64,000 nt of DNA from positions 186,001 through 250,000 of the forward strand of contig JAPTJF010000025.1 in NCBI GenBank assembly GCA_029339195.1, read 5' to 3'. Each line of letters starts with the position of its first letter. Position 1 is the first letter of the stretch. Both the position numbers and the translations under genes were made by a program. The notes beneath the pieces are model-generated. The model made no database searches. It saw only the letters and a list, made by a program, of their open reading frames with translations, and was not told the origin of the DNA. This document shows positions 12,001 to 21,200 of the stretch, piece after piece. This stretch comes from Micractinium sp. NFX-FRZ. Its lineage: Eukaryota > Chlorophyta > Trebouxiophyceae > Chlorellales > Chlorellaceae.

Positions 12001-15000
12001 GGCATGGCTCGCCTGCCGCCTGGCACCGACGTGTCTGTGAGCGCGGCGGCGCCAGGGCCACCAAAGGGCCGCCCCGCATTCACCCCCGCCCCGCCGACCT
12101 CCCTAGTTAGCAGCATCGCGGCACGCAGCCGCACCGCCCGCCCCGTGCCTGTTCCCGCTGCCGTGGTCCCGGCAGCCGAAGCCCCCAAGGGAGCGCCCCG
12201 TGCCGGCGCTTTGCGTAGCTCGCCCAGCGCCGCCGCCCACCCGCTGCTCTCGCACCTGCCCACGTACGGCTGGCAGCGCAGCATCGTGGACTACACAGCC
12301 ATTCGGTTTGTGGTGGACGCTGATGGGGGCTTGGATGAGCTGGGCACCGGCGCCTCGGCCACGGTGGGTGGGGTGGGCGGGGATGCGGGTGCGCTGGTGG
12401 GGTGGCTCGAATCAGGAGCAGGAGTGATATGGCCGCCCCCCGCCTCTTTCCACGTGTACCTCAGCTCAATTAAGTTTGTGGTGGCCCCGATGGTGGCCTG
12501 GTTGAGCTGGGCACGCACGCCTCGACCACTATATGTGGTGCAGGTGTGCCGCATGCTCCTGAGCGGGATGGAGCCTCATGCCGCCAAGGTGTTTCGGCTG
12601 GGCAGCGCCCCATCTTGACATCCACCACCTTACACTATGCTGCAGGTGTACCGCATGCTCTGAACTGAGTGGAGCCGCAGGCTGCCAAGGTGTCCTGCCT
12701 TTCCCCACCCCACATCACCCTTCTTTACACCACCGTCCCTGCTGCAGGTGTACCGTGTGCTGCTGAACGGGGTGGAGCCGCACGCCGCCAAGGTGTTCCG
12801 CCTGGGCAGCGACCCGGAGATGCAGCTCTACTTTCTGGAGGAGGCCAGCCTGCTGCGCCTGCTGCGCCACCGCTGCATCGTCGGATTTGCGGGGGTGTGC
12901 GTGGCCGACGGCAACGGAATCATTCTGATGGTGCGGGGGGGAGGGGGGCGGGTGTTGGCTGGGGAGGGCGCGCTGGGTTGAGCGGCCGGCAGCGTTTCTT
13001 CGTTTTTGCTCGACACGGGAACACACGTAGCGTGACATTCACGACTGGCGTGCCAATCTTACGTGCACGGGGGGCCCCGCGGGAGGCGATGGGCAGGAGG
13101 TGGAGGCCTGCGCACCTCCCCCGTCCATTGCTCATTTATAAGTGACTGACTGACTGACTTGTCCTCAGGAGCTGATGGAGGGTGGGGACCTGCGCACCTC
13201 CCTTCCATCACTCCCGTAACTTGCGTGGTAACTCATTAGCTGTACTTCACGCACCTGCCCGCAGGAGCTGATGGAGGGTGGGGACCTGCGCACCNNNNNN
13301 NNNNNNNNNNNNNNNNNNNNNNNNNNNNNNNNNNNNNNNNNNNNNNNNNNNNNNNNNNNNNCAGGAGCTGATGGAGGGTGGGGACCTGCGCACCTCCCTT
13401 CCATCACTCCCGTAACTTGCGTGGTAACTCATTAGCTGTACTTCACGCACCTGCCCGCAGGAGCTGATGGAGGGTGGGGACCTGCGCACCCGCAACCGCG
13501 AGGTGGGCGCCACTGGGAGGCGCGTGTTTGGGTGGTACCAGCGGTGAGTGCGTGTTGTGTTTGTGGGGGCGGAGTGCGCCGTGGGACCCAGAGCAGCAGC
13601 AGCAGCATCCTGCCCAGGGGGGCAGCGTGTTGGTCGGGGCTGAGCTGAGGCTGGGGGAGGGAGGCGACTGCTTGGTGGGCTCAGGTGAAGCAAGGGGGCA
13701 GTGCTGCTGGCTGCCGGCCCTGGCGCGGCTTGCTACCAGTGCTCCGTGCCTCGATATGGGCGCAAGATGGCATGGGCAAGGGCAGGAGCAGGAGCAGCAC
13801 ATGCGTGGCTGCAAGAGAGCGCCTCCCCTCCCCGCTGCGCTGCTCTGGACACTCGCACACACATACAGGGGGCGAGGGGAGGCTCTTGCCATGAAACCAA
13901 CATCCTGCATCACACATGCTGCGTGCAGGGGCCGGCGGGTGGCTCTGGACGTGGCCTGCGCCCTCAACTACCTGCACAGCGAGACGTACACACACTTTGA
14001 CGTCAAGGTGCGCGCTGTGCCTGCCCTGGTCTGCGCCTGCTGCGCCTGCTGTGTCACCCAAGGGTGCAGCTTGTCTGCGCTTGCTCTTTCCGGCCGCAGG
14101 TTGTCTGCGCTTGCTGTGCACCGGGCTGCGCAGCCCGCCATCCTTTGGTTGCAAACCAGTCACCGCCGCAAGCCTCGCTTCAGCCCTGCACTGCCTCCCC
14201 TGCCCCCAGCACCGCTCCCCCGCAACCCTCACCTGCCGGCAGGCCCGCAATGTGCTGCTCTCTCGGGACATGACCGCTAAGCTGGCTGATGTCGGCTTTG
14301 CCAGGTGTGTGGGGCGTCTTTAGTCTGCACGTGTGTGTGTGTTACAGTTGGTATGCCCGATGTGTGGGGCGTCTTCTTACAGTCCGTGTGTGTGTGTATG
14401 TTTGTTTGGCAACCTATGTGCCACATGTGTGTGCGCGTGGGAAGGGTGAGCCAGCAACTGCGCTCAGCCAGTAGGACACCAGCTGGCAGATGCCGGCTCC
14501 GCCTGCTGGTGCGCCGAAGCGGCTGTCGGGCAGCGGCGGCAGGAGATGGGCACGGCGGGGTCGAGCTGAGGGGGCATGGTGTCGGGACTGTGCATGGGGC
14601 GCCTGTAGGGTGCGGCTGCGTGACGCAAGTCGACAACAGGAGCGCCTTGATGCATTTCACGGGGCATGGTGCTGCCACCTGCTGCCGCTACACGCCTAGT
14701 GTAGTCTAGTTGTTACAGCTTTTCGCATCCCCTTGTAAGAGGATCTCACTGGGCGTGTTTTTGCCGCCGGCTCCCGGCTGCAGGGCCATGCGCGCGACGC
14801 ACCACTCCATTGAGGGACCCACAGGCACCTTTGACTATGTGAGTCGACTTTGGCTGTGTGAGAGGAGGTTGACTTCGACTGTGTATGACTTTATTACACT
14901 TTGACCGACCACATCAGCTGCCAACTGGAGCCGGCTTGCCTGCTGGGGGTGTGATTGGGTGTGGGGGAGGCGGCCCGCGCCCTGGTTTGGGTCGCAGAGT

Positions 15001-16851: not shown

Positions 16852-18463
16852 CTATGCGAGCTGCGCCTGTGCTTGCTGTGCTGTCAGGCCAGCGGTTGGG
16901 ATGTGAAACACCCACAGATCTTGCAGCAGGTCCCAGAAGCGAGCGACAGCATGTCGCTGAGCTCCGGCAACGAGGTGAGCGGTTGTGGGGGAAGGTGCTG
17001 GAGGGTGGCGGCTACTGGATGGGCGCTGCTCAGCTTGGCGCGCATGCAGCGCACAGGCTATCAACTGGCGGCGGCCAGCATCCATGGCACTCAGCGCTGC
17101 CAGGCATACCGCATCCCACACATCGGCATGGGTGCCAGCAGGGGTGCGCATCAGCCAGAGCTCCAGCCACGTGGGGTGCCGCCCATCCAGCTGAGCCGCC
17201 AAGGTGGCGCGCACAGCGGCGGCCACAGGGCAGTCCCAGTAGTGGTGGCGGCGGCCAGGGTGACTGACTGACTGAATGTGGGTTACACGTCATTTCAGCA
17301 CAAACCTGTGCTGCTCAATGAATCAAGCATACAGAACCAGCCTGTCGGTGCCCTGACAGGGGTGCGAGCCATGAGCCTGCCCTGCGACCAAACCGGCCTT
17401 GCATGCTGGCTTGACGCTTCCTAATAGCTTCCCTTCTAGAAGTTTCCAGAAAACTCTAGATTATTCTTGGACCTTCTGGAGGTGGTTACCTGACCCTTAC
17501 GTAACCATTGCATAACCGATTACGTAACCCAGGATGTGGCACCCTCCAGCACACCGTCGCCTCGCCTCACCTCACCGCCTCACCTCACCGACACGCTCCG
17601 ACACGCCGTTCCCGGCAGTAGCCGTCTGCTCCCAATTCATACAACGCGCCCACAAAGTCCGCACGCTAACGAGACAACGACCGTGTGTCGGACCTGCTGC
17701 TGCGCGCGCGCGAAAACGCCAGCGAACACAAAACGGCCCGGGACCCCGCCCATCGCCTTACTTGCGATTTCTAGTTTGCGACGATGCGGGTGCCACCGAG
17801 TTGGAACCCGCAGTCGAGCATGATAGGAGCTTCTTTTTCGGGCACTTTTCGCGCCCGATTTTGGCGGCGCTCACACGCTGCTGCGGCGAGGCCGCAACCT
17901 CCCTCGTTCGCCACAACGTCCGATGGCATTGCGCATTTTAGAAACAGCATCGTGCCTACGCGACTGCAGACCCCTCTCCGCAGCTTTGTACAAAATCGTA
18001 ACCAATCCACGTCAGCACCTCTTCGCTTCACAGTATAGCTATAGCCATTTCATGGCTCGCAATGAATGACACATTGAGACGCGAGCGCAAAAGCATCGCA
18101 GGACGAGAATGGAGCAGCCAGGGTGAGTGTCAGGTGAGCCGCATGGGCAGGGCTGGGGGCCGCTGCTGGCCATGCGGGCGGCGAGGGGGAGGGCATTGAG
18201 CACGAGGCGCCAATACACCTCCTTGTGCTGACTCTCCCAAGGCAGCTGCCACAGCCGCGGCAGCAGGTGCGCCACCTCGCTGCCGGTGGTTGCAGAGCCC
18301 GCGCCGTTCGCTGCCGCCTCTGCCTCAAAGGCAGCAAAGCGCTGCAGCCGCTCCTGCTGCAAGCCAGCCAGCTGCAGCTGACTGACCTGCCGCACGCCGA
18401 AGCTGGGCAGGGAGATTGGGGAGCCGCCCAGGAGCCGCCCAGCCGCCAGCATCAGCTTCCGTG
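16852..18463 (-). mobile_element. Decayed LINE (non-LTR retrotransposon) 3' fragment, split by an insertion
   Basis: On the minus strand 18463-18127 encodes a LINE ORF tail ending in a zinc-knuckle start (PCPCGSPDTHPG). After an 854-bp insertion, coding resumes at about 17254 with RRHHYWDCPVAAAV and TPAGTHADVWDAVCLAAL. Removing the insertion and one target copy restores the frame across a zf-RVT-like CxC...HH...C knuckle. LPWESQHKEVYWRLVLNALP is typical of algal LINE ORFs just before this knuckle. The 5' part including reverse transcriptase is absent here; the fragment stops at the inverted-repeat boundary. It is a dead copy. Confidence 0.8.
17264..18117. mobile_element. 854-bp insertion with 9-bp target duplication
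   Basis: CCAGGGTGA occurs at 17255-17263 and again at 18118-18126, flanking exactly 854 bp. Read on the minus strand, the insert ends in a (CAGT)n-like tail (ATTCAGTCAGTCAG), as a retroposon with a microsatellite tail would; 9-bp duplications also fit Mutator-like DNA elements, but I see no convincing terminal inverted repeats. It carries only an 86-codon minus-strand frame (17771-18031) without a known domain. Probably non-autonomous. Confidence 0.7.
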
Positions 18464-18644
18464 GCTGCTGCCGCTGCTGCGCGCTGCTGAGGCCGTCGCG
18501 GAGGCTGTCGGGGCCGATTCTGGGGCGAGCAGGCCGCGGGAGGCGCCGCGGCGGACTTTGGGAATCGTTCACTTTTGCAGTCCGAGACCTTAAATTTCGA
18601 GCCGGCCACCATCGAATTCTACCCAGCATTGCTGGGACCCTGTC

Positions 18645-18731
18645 ATCTGCTGCGGAAACGCGCATAGGTTCAAATCCTGTCGGTGTCGATTTCTGACACC
18701 GTGCCCGAGCGGTTAAGGGGGCAGACTAGAA
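18645..18731 (+). tRNA. trnS(AGA): Circularly permuted tRNA-Ser(AGA), copy 1
   Basis: The 3' half comes first: 18645-18688 gives position 38, the anticodon 3' strand (TCTGC), a variable arm GCG-GAAA-CGC, a T arm with loop TTCAAAT, the acceptor strand CGGTGTC and discriminator G. Six nt (ATTTCT, 18689-18694) follow. The 5' half is 18695-18731: acceptor GACACCG, D arm CCC/GGG with loop GAGCGGTTAA, anticodon 5' strand GCAGA and loop CTAGAA with anticodon AGA. All 7 acceptor, 5 anticodon, 3 D and 5 T pairs form (one T-G wobble). The break is at 37/38, the eukaryotic tRNA intron site. Box B precedes box A, and TTTT at 18741 may terminate Pol III. No second 5' or 3' half exists nearby, so tandem ordinary tRNAs are excluded. 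Confidence 0.9.
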
Positions 18732-18740
18732 TGATTTGCA

Positions 18741-18744
18741 TTTT
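18741..18744 (+). terminator. T4 run after permuted tRNA copy 1
   Basis: TTTT lies 9 nt after the end of the 5' half, where a Pol III terminator would be expected for a permuted precursor. Confidence 0.5.
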
Positions 18745-18773
18745 GCATTGCAAAAACACCATCGGCATGCGCC

Positions 18774-19386: not shown

Positions 19387-19699
19387 GGCGCATGCCGATG
19401 GTGTTTTTGCAATGCAAAATGCAAATCATTCTAGTCTGCCCCCTTAACCGCTCGGGCACGGTGTCAGAAATCGACACCGACAGGATTTGAACCTATGCGC
19501 GTTTCCGCAGCAGATGACAGGGTCCCAGCAATGCTGGGTAGAATTCGATGGTGGCCGGCTCGAAATTTAAGGTCTCGGACTGCAAAAGTGAACGATTCCC
19601 AAAGTCCGCCGCGGCGCCTCCCGCGGCCTGCTCGCCCCAGAATCGGCCCCGACAGCCTCCGCGACGGCCTCAGCAGCGCGCAGCAGCGGCAGCAGCAGC
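19387..19699 (-). repeat. Right arm of the approximately 310-bp inverted repeat
   Basis: Reverse complement of 18464-18773. Its outer boundary abuts the 5'-truncated reverse-transcriptase fragment that continues to about 21200. Confidence 0.9.
19429..19515 (-). tRNA. trnS(AGA): Circularly permuted tRNA-Ser(AGA), copy 2
   Basis: Same unit as copy 1 on the opposite strand: 3' half 19472-19515, six-nt linker 19466-19471, 5' half 19429-19465. Every base of both halves and the linker matches copy 1, as do the flank and the T4 run. Whether both, one or neither is transcribed cannot be told from sequence. Confidence 0.9.
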
Positions 19700-21200
19700 C
19701 CACTCTTCTCAGCAGGCGTACGGCAGGGGTGCCCCCTCTCCCGCTGCTGTACCTGTGCCTGGCTCAGGCCCTGCTGCGCCTGCTTCAAGCACGCAGCGTG
19801 GGCATCCAGGCAGCCGGCGTCCACCTGGCAGCGCTGCAGTTTGCTGATGACTGCAAGGCGCTGCTGGAGGGTGGGACGGGGCAGCAGGCAGCCGACAGGG
19901 TGCAGTCCTTCCTCGCTCCCATGTCCACGTTTGCGGCCGCCAGCGGGCAGCACCTGGCACTAGAGAAGACCCACCTGCTGCCCATCGGCGCACAGCCGCC
20001 AGCCCCGCTGCCCGACACCATGCACGGCCTCAAGGTGGTGTCCAGCGCTGAGGCGCTGGGACTGCAGTTCCATGCCGGCACTCAGCCTGCCACCGCTGAC
20101 TGGCAGCCCAAGCTGCAGAAAGTGGAAGCCAAGTACAGCAAGCTAGCCACCCTGGGCCTGTCAGCCTTTGGCCGCGGCTTTGGCAGCGCAGCCTATGGCG
20201 TCAGCCAGCTACTGCACGCATGCGAGCTGGCAGGCAGCCCGCCCCCTGAGGCTGTGCACCGCCTCAACAGCGTCACTGCCGATTGGTCGACCGCGGCCTG
20301 GCACCAGATGACAGCCACCCAGCCTTTGCCGGCGTGCGCGGCCCGCTGCCGGCAGGCCACCCCCGCGACGGCGGCTTCGGGGCTCTGCCATGGGAGCAGC
20401 ACGTGCGCTCCCGCCACGCAGCATGGGCGGTGCGCTTGGCTCTTGCTGAGCCAGACCGCCCGTGGGCTGTGGTGGCCGCCGCTCTCCTCCGCCAGGTCGA
20501 CCCCTCCCTCTCTCCTACAGCTGCTGACGTGGCACCCCACATATGGTGCTGAGTAGCGGCTCCCGCCGCCGCTGCGGTGTATGTGGGAGGGCCTGCAAGC
20601 CCTGCCGCCAGTGCAGCAAGTGAGCGAGCTGCAGCCTCGTGCTGGGTGCTGCAAGGTGCCGCTGTGGGGCAACCCCCTGTTGCGGCTGCCAGATGGGCAG
20701 CCACTAGAGTCCCAGTTTGGGGACGTGGCAGCATCCAGCATCCGGCACATCCCAGCGCTCCTTGCGGCACACCACCAGCTGCAGCACAGCTCCCCCCGCC
20801 AGTACACAGCCGACGCGCGCAGGCAGCTGTTCGGCTGGGCCGCAGCTGATGCCTTCCTCGACCTGCAGCGCACCCGCGAGCAGCTGGCAGCCCTGCTGGC
20901 TGTGCTCCCCGATGGTTGGGCAGACGCCGCCTGGGTTCACCTGGGCAGTGGCCCTGCCCGGGCTGGCGGGGCAGCCACGGAAGCTGACGCCGTTGCAGTG
21001 ATGCTCGGCTCTCTCGGATGGCAGCTGGGTGGCTCCCCAATCTCCCTGCCCAGCTTCCGTGTGCGGCAGGGCACTCGGCTGCAGCTTGCTGGCTTGCAGC
21101 GCTGCTAGCAGGGCGGCTGCAGCGCTTTGCTGCCTTTGAGGCACAGGCAGCGGCAGACGGCGGGGGCGCTGGAGTCCAGGAAGGCTTCGGCAGGCGTATC
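19700..21200 (+). mobile_element. Decayed LINE fragment with reverse transcriptase
   Basis: The frame contains the RT core (LLYLCLAQALLRLLQA, then the catalytic-type FADD in LQFADDCKALLEG) and SGQHLALEKTHLLPIG. The expected GVRQGCPLSPLLY is broken by a one-base shift near 19736. A TAG at 20554-20556 interrupts the ORF, which resumes in the same frame at 20581. A further shift near 21105 separates the SLPSFRVRQG and RLQRFAAFEAQA segments. The endonuclease and RT N-terminus are missing. Its last part is homologous to the minus-strand fragment at 18127-18463. Confidence 0.85.

Follow-up and report, generated by a model that had tools for sequence, protein, structure and literature searches.

Background

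Permutation is rare among tRNA genes: for one archaeon and six algae together, a review of 2014 counts 34 cases (PMC3978253). Its Table 1 includes prasinophytes with permuted Cys(GCA) and Ser(AGA) genes, and does not list a permuted Ala(CGC) gene. In the nucleomorphs of Bigelowiella and Amorphochlora both Ser(AGA) and Ser(CGA) are described as permuted (PMC4494063). For red and green algae the review describes a pathway in which a linear transcript is cut at 37/38 by the splicing endonuclease and ligated into a circle, after which the linker is removed by RNase P and tRNase Z and the CCA end is added (PMC3978253). Permuted tRNA genes have also been described in the trebouxiophyte Auxenochlorella, strain UTEX 250-A, for which the tRNAscan-SE set is said to be incomplete (PMC12636532). 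Among the open-licence PMC papers listed in literature searches, judged by title and the start of the abstract, there was no other report of permuted tRNAs in this host group.

A permuted tRNA-Ser(AGA) gene in two copies

The window, i.e. the whole stretch of 64,000 nucleotides that was analysed, lies on a contig of 262,741 bases (C25) in a genome assembly of 66,065,352 bases in 838 contigs. The initial annotation had placed in it a nuclear tRNA-Ser(AGA) gene permuted at 37/38. The permutation, the junction and the coordinates are borne out by the sequence and by the fold of the joined 81 nt (Table 1), and the gene is probably nuclear, since its contig is distinct from those taken as the mitochondrion (C837) and, presumably, the plastid (C838). 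A second, identical copy, absent from that annotation, lies on the opposite strand.

With no constraint set, energy minimisation folds the joined RNA into the serine cloverleaf (-30.2 kcal/mol), with a single pair beyond the textbook form (26-44), and the same arms are kept when the circular form is folded with its linker. All 12 pairs formed between the two halves are standard, seven in the acceptor stem and five in the anticodon stem. The proposal that all helices pair thus holds for 20 of the 21 stem pairs checked, these twelve included, and fails at position 13-22 of the D arm, where G faces A. The variable arm, which had been proposed to be a GNRA-like hairpin, reads GCG-GAAA-CGC.

Marks of a tRNA-Ser of this kind are the anticodon AGA, a long variable arm and the discriminator G73, and these three traits are present in the joined sequence and its fold. 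The order of the halves and the full eukaryotic cloverleaf obtained on joining are those of a type II (37/38) permuted gene, as are the unencoded CCA end, the absence of a T4 run inside the precursor and the T-run downstream of it. Box B stands ahead of box A and a T4 run follows the 5' half, as first described. On the sequence evidence we consider it very likely that this is a working nuclear gene for tRNA-Ser(AGA) of type II (37/38). In the assembly its two identical copies form an inverted duplication, and it belongs to a set of at least nine permuted genes.

Table 1. Features of the permuted tRNA-Ser(AGA) locus, in window positions
Feature	Position	Strand	Length	Remarks
Permuted gene, copy 1	18645-18731	+		order: 3' half, linker, 5' half
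3' half, copy 1	18645-18688	+	44 nt	tRNA positions 38-73; box B at 18667-18677
Intervening linker, copy 1	18689-18694	+	6 nt	ATTTCT; CCA not encoded
5' half, copy 1	18695-18731	+	37 nt	tRNA positions 1-37; box A at 18702-18712; anticodon AGA
T4 run	18741-18744	+		probably terminates Pol III transcription of copy 1; begins at trailer +10
AT-rich TTAAATTT	18590-18597	+		possible TATA-like element, by eye; precedes the 3' half of copy 1 by 48-55 nt
Permuted gene, copy 2	19429-19515	-		identical to copy 1
3' half, copy 2	19472-19515	-		identical to copy 1
Linker, copy 2	19466-19471	-		
5' half, copy 2	19429-19465	-		identical to copy 1
Inverted repeat, left arm	18464-18773	+	310 bp	perfect repeat; holds copy 1
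Inverted repeat, right arm	19387-19696	-	310 bp	perfect repeat; holds copy 2

Recognition by a covariance model

It had been suggested that ordinary tRNA finders miss such a gene. This was confirmed for the two that were tried, ARAGORN (bacterial setting) and Rfam at its gathering score, neither of which reported a tRNA in the window. The gene was recovered by a covariance model (R1) that describes the core of a permuted tRNA gene, namely the T arm, the 3' acceptor strand, the linker, the 5' acceptor strand and the D arm, and that was trained on 16 constructs, 15 of them from intact tRNAs of the genome and one from the Ser gene itself. With R1 the Ser gene scores 52.7 bits. The best of the 25 other listed matches in the window, the second copy aside, scores 12 bits, and over 42 loci, which include all 19 chosen for their intact tRNAs, the best place other than the Ser copies scores 25.7 bits.

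Because the Ser gene sat in the training set of R1, the model was rebuilt without it (R2). The gene then scores 39.1 bits (E 2.1e-10), and 62 other loci reach no more than 26.2 bits, the score of an intact Arg(TCT) gene; the loci outside this run are duplicates of places within it, organellar loci and intact tRNA loci already scored by R1. An Ala(AGC) construct made from the genome is part of both models and helps the Ala genes to their scores. Both models were built without an initiator tRNA, the T loop of which differs from that of other tRNAs, and iMet genes may escape them. The exact permuted patterns gave 0 matches in collections of viruses and prokaryotes, as expected of collections without algae.

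Other permuted tRNA genes in the genome

The D-arm motif TAGCTCAGNGGTAGAGC, with one mismatch allowed, occurs at 13 places, of which seven are nuclear and exact, one is nuclear with a mismatch (L112, without a tRNA signal) and five are organellar. All seven exact nuclear places are permuted genes joined at 37/38, four for Ala(CGC) and three for Cys(GCA). Their scores are 37.8-48.1 bits with R1 and 38.3-50.3 bits with R2, and none is detected by ARAGORN or by Rfam at the gathering score. These two tools missed nine out of nine permuted genes, so that ordinary tools may undercount the tRNAs of such genomes.

The four Ala(CGC) genes have identical mature sequences and linkers of 13, 13, 8 and 10 nt, and the minimum-energy fold of the joined sequence is a cloverleaf. 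The linkers of the three Cys(GCA) genes measure 15, 14 and 37 nt. Left unconstrained, none of the three joined Cys sequences has a cloverleaf as its minimum-energy fold, which sets them apart from Ser and Ala; in each of them, though, every one of the 21 cloverleaf pairs that were checked is standard.

The genome thus contains at least nine permuted genes (eight if the second Ser copy is erroneous), a number from a partial census that is to be read as a lower bound and not as a rate. Because at least seven further tRNA genes share the permuted build, the layout gives the impression of an established trait of this alga, not of an accident. It is not general in the genome, since all four nuclear places of the motif TAGCTCARNNGGTAGAGC carry intact genes (three Lys and one Ala(AGC)); the other four of its eight places are organellar, and none of the eight holds a permuted gene. 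Neither did the Leu D-arm motif lead to a permuted gene at any of its nine places, which comprise two intact Leu(CAG) genes, one intron-bearing Leu(TAA) gene and six places without a tRNA according to ARAGORN or R1, nor did a Val/Asn-like D-arm motif at its two places, both organellar. The iMet motif occurs at 57 places when one mismatch is allowed. Thirty of its loci were covered, nine by R1 and 29 by R2 (all but L081, an intact Trp gene); L113-L115 were additionally run with R2, and these three together with L091 and L095 were read by eye. Apart from two Trp genes (on contigs C19 and C635), the places examined contain no iMet gene and no tRNA of either form.

Coevolution of the separated halves

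The Cys genes show how the two halves of a permuted gene have changed relative to each other. Two-sided compensatory changes were found in at least one comparison among the three genes at the pairs 3-70, 4-69, 5-68, 7-66 and 29-41, and a one-sided change that leaves a standard pair at 6-67. The halves of each Cys gene form 12 of 12 pairs with each other, and mixed halves form 7, 8, 9, 10, 11 and 11 of 12. Since the halves keep matching while they change, they are selected together, and for the permuted class this is strong evidence, at the level of sequence, that the separated halves act as one tRNA. It is a test on the Cys genes, and one that the Ser gene, with its two identical copies, does not permit.

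This coevolution in the sister genes bears on the possibility that the Ser locus is a dead relic, in which a tandem pair of tRNA-Ser genes has lost its outer halves and the remainder is a pseudogene. Among the models put forward for the origin of permuted genes is such a tandem duplication whose outer halves are then lost (PMC3978253), and the Ser junction lacks a clear bulge-helix-bulge. The Ser gene shows no decay, with all twelve cross-half pairs standard and the T4 run in place, and an intact replacement was not found in genome searches of limited reach, which are described below. We therefore consider a relic very improbable, and a functional permuted gene remains the preferred reading.

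Search for an intact tRNA-Ser(AGA) gene

With the joined Ser sequence as DNA query and E values up to 10, nothing in the whole genome was matched but the two copies, each by its two halves. With no mismatch allowed, the Ser D-arm motif occurs at four places, namely the two permuted Ser genes and two intact Ser(GCT) genes, and a related motif with two mismatches at 16, which are the same four, one Arg(TCT) gene and eleven places that are free of tRNAs by ARAGORN and R1; none of these is an intact Ser(AGA) gene. Nor is one found with the Ser T-arm motif when one mismatch is allowed. The 13 places of this motif are the two permuted Ser genes, two Ser(GCT), two Leu(CAG), one Leu(CAA) and one Leu(TAA) gene, three places that are tRNA-free by ARAGORN and R1, and two that are organellar. 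The Leu(CAA) and Leu(TAA) genes bear introns, and were missed by ARAGORN and found by Rfam; the places called empty rest on ARAGORN and R1, without Rfam. Of 639 candidates in the genome-wide Rfam search for tRNAs 63 were scored, and a diverged or intron-bearing Ser(AGA) gene could have escaped notice. With regard to the proposed count of intact tRNA-Ser(AGA) genes elsewhere, the result is none found within the reach of these motif searches and of the candidates scored.

Genes for Ser(CGA) and Ser(TGA), intact or permuted, were likewise not found with the Ser motifs across the genome. An orphan tRNA-like T arm was observed at L070 (1501-1518, on contig C141), with no 5' half recognised nearby.

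The inverted repeat and its surroundings

The arms of the perfect inverted repeat that holds the two Ser copies are 613 nt apart, and a query of 161 bases around the Ser gene has two 100% matches in the genome, both in the window. Inverted pairs of tRNA genes of the same isotype were observed in two further cases. An intact Ser(GCT) pair (L021, 87-456 and 561-930) has arms of 370 nt that are 100% identical, as are the 310-nt arms around the permuted Ser(AGA) pair, and a permuted Ala(CGC) pair (L106, 12-185 and 445-618) has arms of 174 nt with 94% identity. Inverted duplication of tRNA genes thus seems to be recurrent in this genome. No on-topic literature on inverted tRNA pairs was found among open-licence PMC papers.

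The complete identity of the Ser arms over 310 bp raises the question of an assembly error, which may have swapped the halves or created the inverted copy. The permutation and the duplication are separate questions in this respect: the perfect inverted repeat with its second copy could be an error of assembly even if the permutation is real. Elsewhere in the window there is also a suspicious local repeat, a stretch of 31 nt that occurs four times in 13168-13490 (starting at 13168, 13264, 13364 and 13460), inside what by eye is a kinase-like gene, and that is possibly an assembly duplication around a gap. The seven further permuted genes, however, are spread over six other contigs and have differing linkers and flanks, and the arms of the inverted Ala(CGC) pair have diverged, as those of a real duplication would. 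An assembly error is accordingly even less probable to us than a relic, and we continue to regard the permutation as genuine.

Near the outer edges of the repeat there are retroelement-like coding remains in opposite orientation, at 18293-18431 (-) and 21025-21171 (+), which are 84% alike. From 19697 onwards (+) a reverse-transcriptase-like stretch follows, with an E value of 0.22 to Pfam RVT_1, far under the cut-off, and a seemingly broken reading frame; it contains, by eye, a FADD-like motif that we take to be a mark of reverse transcriptases. The first ten open reading frames of the window matched no Pfam family. Both the related inverted pieces outside the arms and this stretch would be in line with a tRNA-derived SINE, or another retroelement piece, in place of a tRNA gene. 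Since a DNA search of the 66 Mb revealed two copies only, and since the tRNA consensus is intact, we regard this as the least probable of the alternatives, and a permuted tRNA gene as the far better description of the locus.

Transcription and processing

In seven of the eight distinct precursors a T4 run begins no more than 10 nt downstream of the 5' half, in the remaining one at +30, and no precursor contains such a run internally. For comparison, a random window position has a T4 within 13 nt in 1.4% of draws. In type II genes a TATA-like or AT-rich element is expected within about 50 bp upstream. The AT-rich stretch of Table 1 was noted by eye near this distance, and four TATA hexamers that were tried are absent from the 60-nt leaders of the eight precursors. 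Because the order of the boxes is reversed, ordinary use of TFIIIC is doubtful.

A duplex between leader and trailer, as expected for a bulge-helix-bulge, is no better for the Ser gene than for shuffled leaders (fraction 0.35), and the fraction is at most 0.07 in two of the eight precursors, Cys_L107 and Cys_L111. A small hairpin noticed ahead of several 3' halves was considered and rejected: of the eight leaders, that of Cys_L111 alone exceeds its dinucleotide shuffles (z -2.2, fraction 0.03), the next being Ala_L108 with a fraction of 0.07.

Introns in the anticodon loop were recognised by eye in genes whose anticodons, likewise read by eye, make them Arg(TCT), Leu(TAA) and Leu(CAA) (L020 605-695, L062 and L066), and the existence of these genes implies that machinery for splicing at 37/38 is available. 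By analogy with other algae, from which every enzymatic step is taken, RNA polymerase III would produce one linear transcript that runs from the leader to the T4. The tRNA splicing endonuclease would then cleave between leader and position 38 and between position 37 and trailer, and a ligase would join 37 to 38 into a circle. RNase P and tRNase Z would excise the linker at the acceptor end, and CCA would be added to the tRNA. What is observed in this genome itself is the gene order, the fold, the T-run and the coevolution in the sister genes. The product would decode UCU and UCC, presumably with A34 read as inosine.

Host and comparison with known systems

The contig C837 (74,426 bases) carries nad3, which encodes a protein of 117 residues. 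Among the best 120 of 8000 matches, the named ones include Chlorella desiccata (87%), Lobosphaera incisa (83%), Coccomyxa (81%), Prototheca wickerhamii (80%) and the prasinophyte Pyramimonas parkeae (79%); one match of 81% is labelled Paenibacillus and is probably a contaminant, and matches without an organism name reach 94%. The closest named relatives in this selection are trebouxiophytes. As judged by this one short protein, a trebouxiophyte host is likely, and the core-chlorophyte host assumed in the initial annotation is plausible. The accompanying suggestion that the range of permuted tRNAs would be widened is not supported: as such genes have been published for the trebouxiophyte Auxenochlorella (PMC12633428, PMC12636532), their occurrence here is not a first.

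With permuted tRNA genes known already, from a trebouxiophyte as well, it is the family structure of the permuted genes that is of interest in this genome. The permuted layout may have become the settled state of entire isoacceptor families, with four Ala(CGC), three Cys(GCA) and two Ser(AGA) genes, which would have multiplied in permuted form and evolved by compensation between the halves. The Cys and Ser families may then go back to one inheritance that predates the split between prasinophytes and core chlorophytes, rather than to repeated inventions. We offer this scenario tentatively, as somewhat short of an even chance; what makes a single old inheritance conceivable is that prasinophytes, too, have Cys(GCA) and Ser(AGA) permuted at 37/38, as nucleomorphs have Ser(AGA). 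At least nine permuted genes, in families of up to four, form a natural data set on how such genes multiply, on transcription with box B before box A, and on their age in the green algae.

The closest counterparts are the permuted Ser(AGA) genes in the nucleomorph of Bigelowiella natans and in Micromonas pusilla, which, in the features tabulated in PMC3978253, share with the gene described here the isoacceptor, the junction at 37/38 and the absence of an intron. The linker measures 5 bp in B. natans and 64 bp in M. pusilla, and 6 here. The host is a different one, and in contrast to what is tabulated for those two genes, an inverted repeat here holds the gene in two identical copies. With Cyanidioschyzon merolae it has in common the order of the halves, the T-stretch after the 5' half and the unencoded CCA; the review gives several junction positions for C. 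merolae, whereas the nine genes found here are all joined at 37/38 (PMC3978253). Finally, as in Auxenochlorella UTEX 250-A (PMC12636532), permuted tRNA genes occur in what is probably a trebouxiophyte genome, which at 66 Mb differs from those of that streamlined lineage, A. protothecoides having 22.9 Mb (PMC12633428, PMC12636532).
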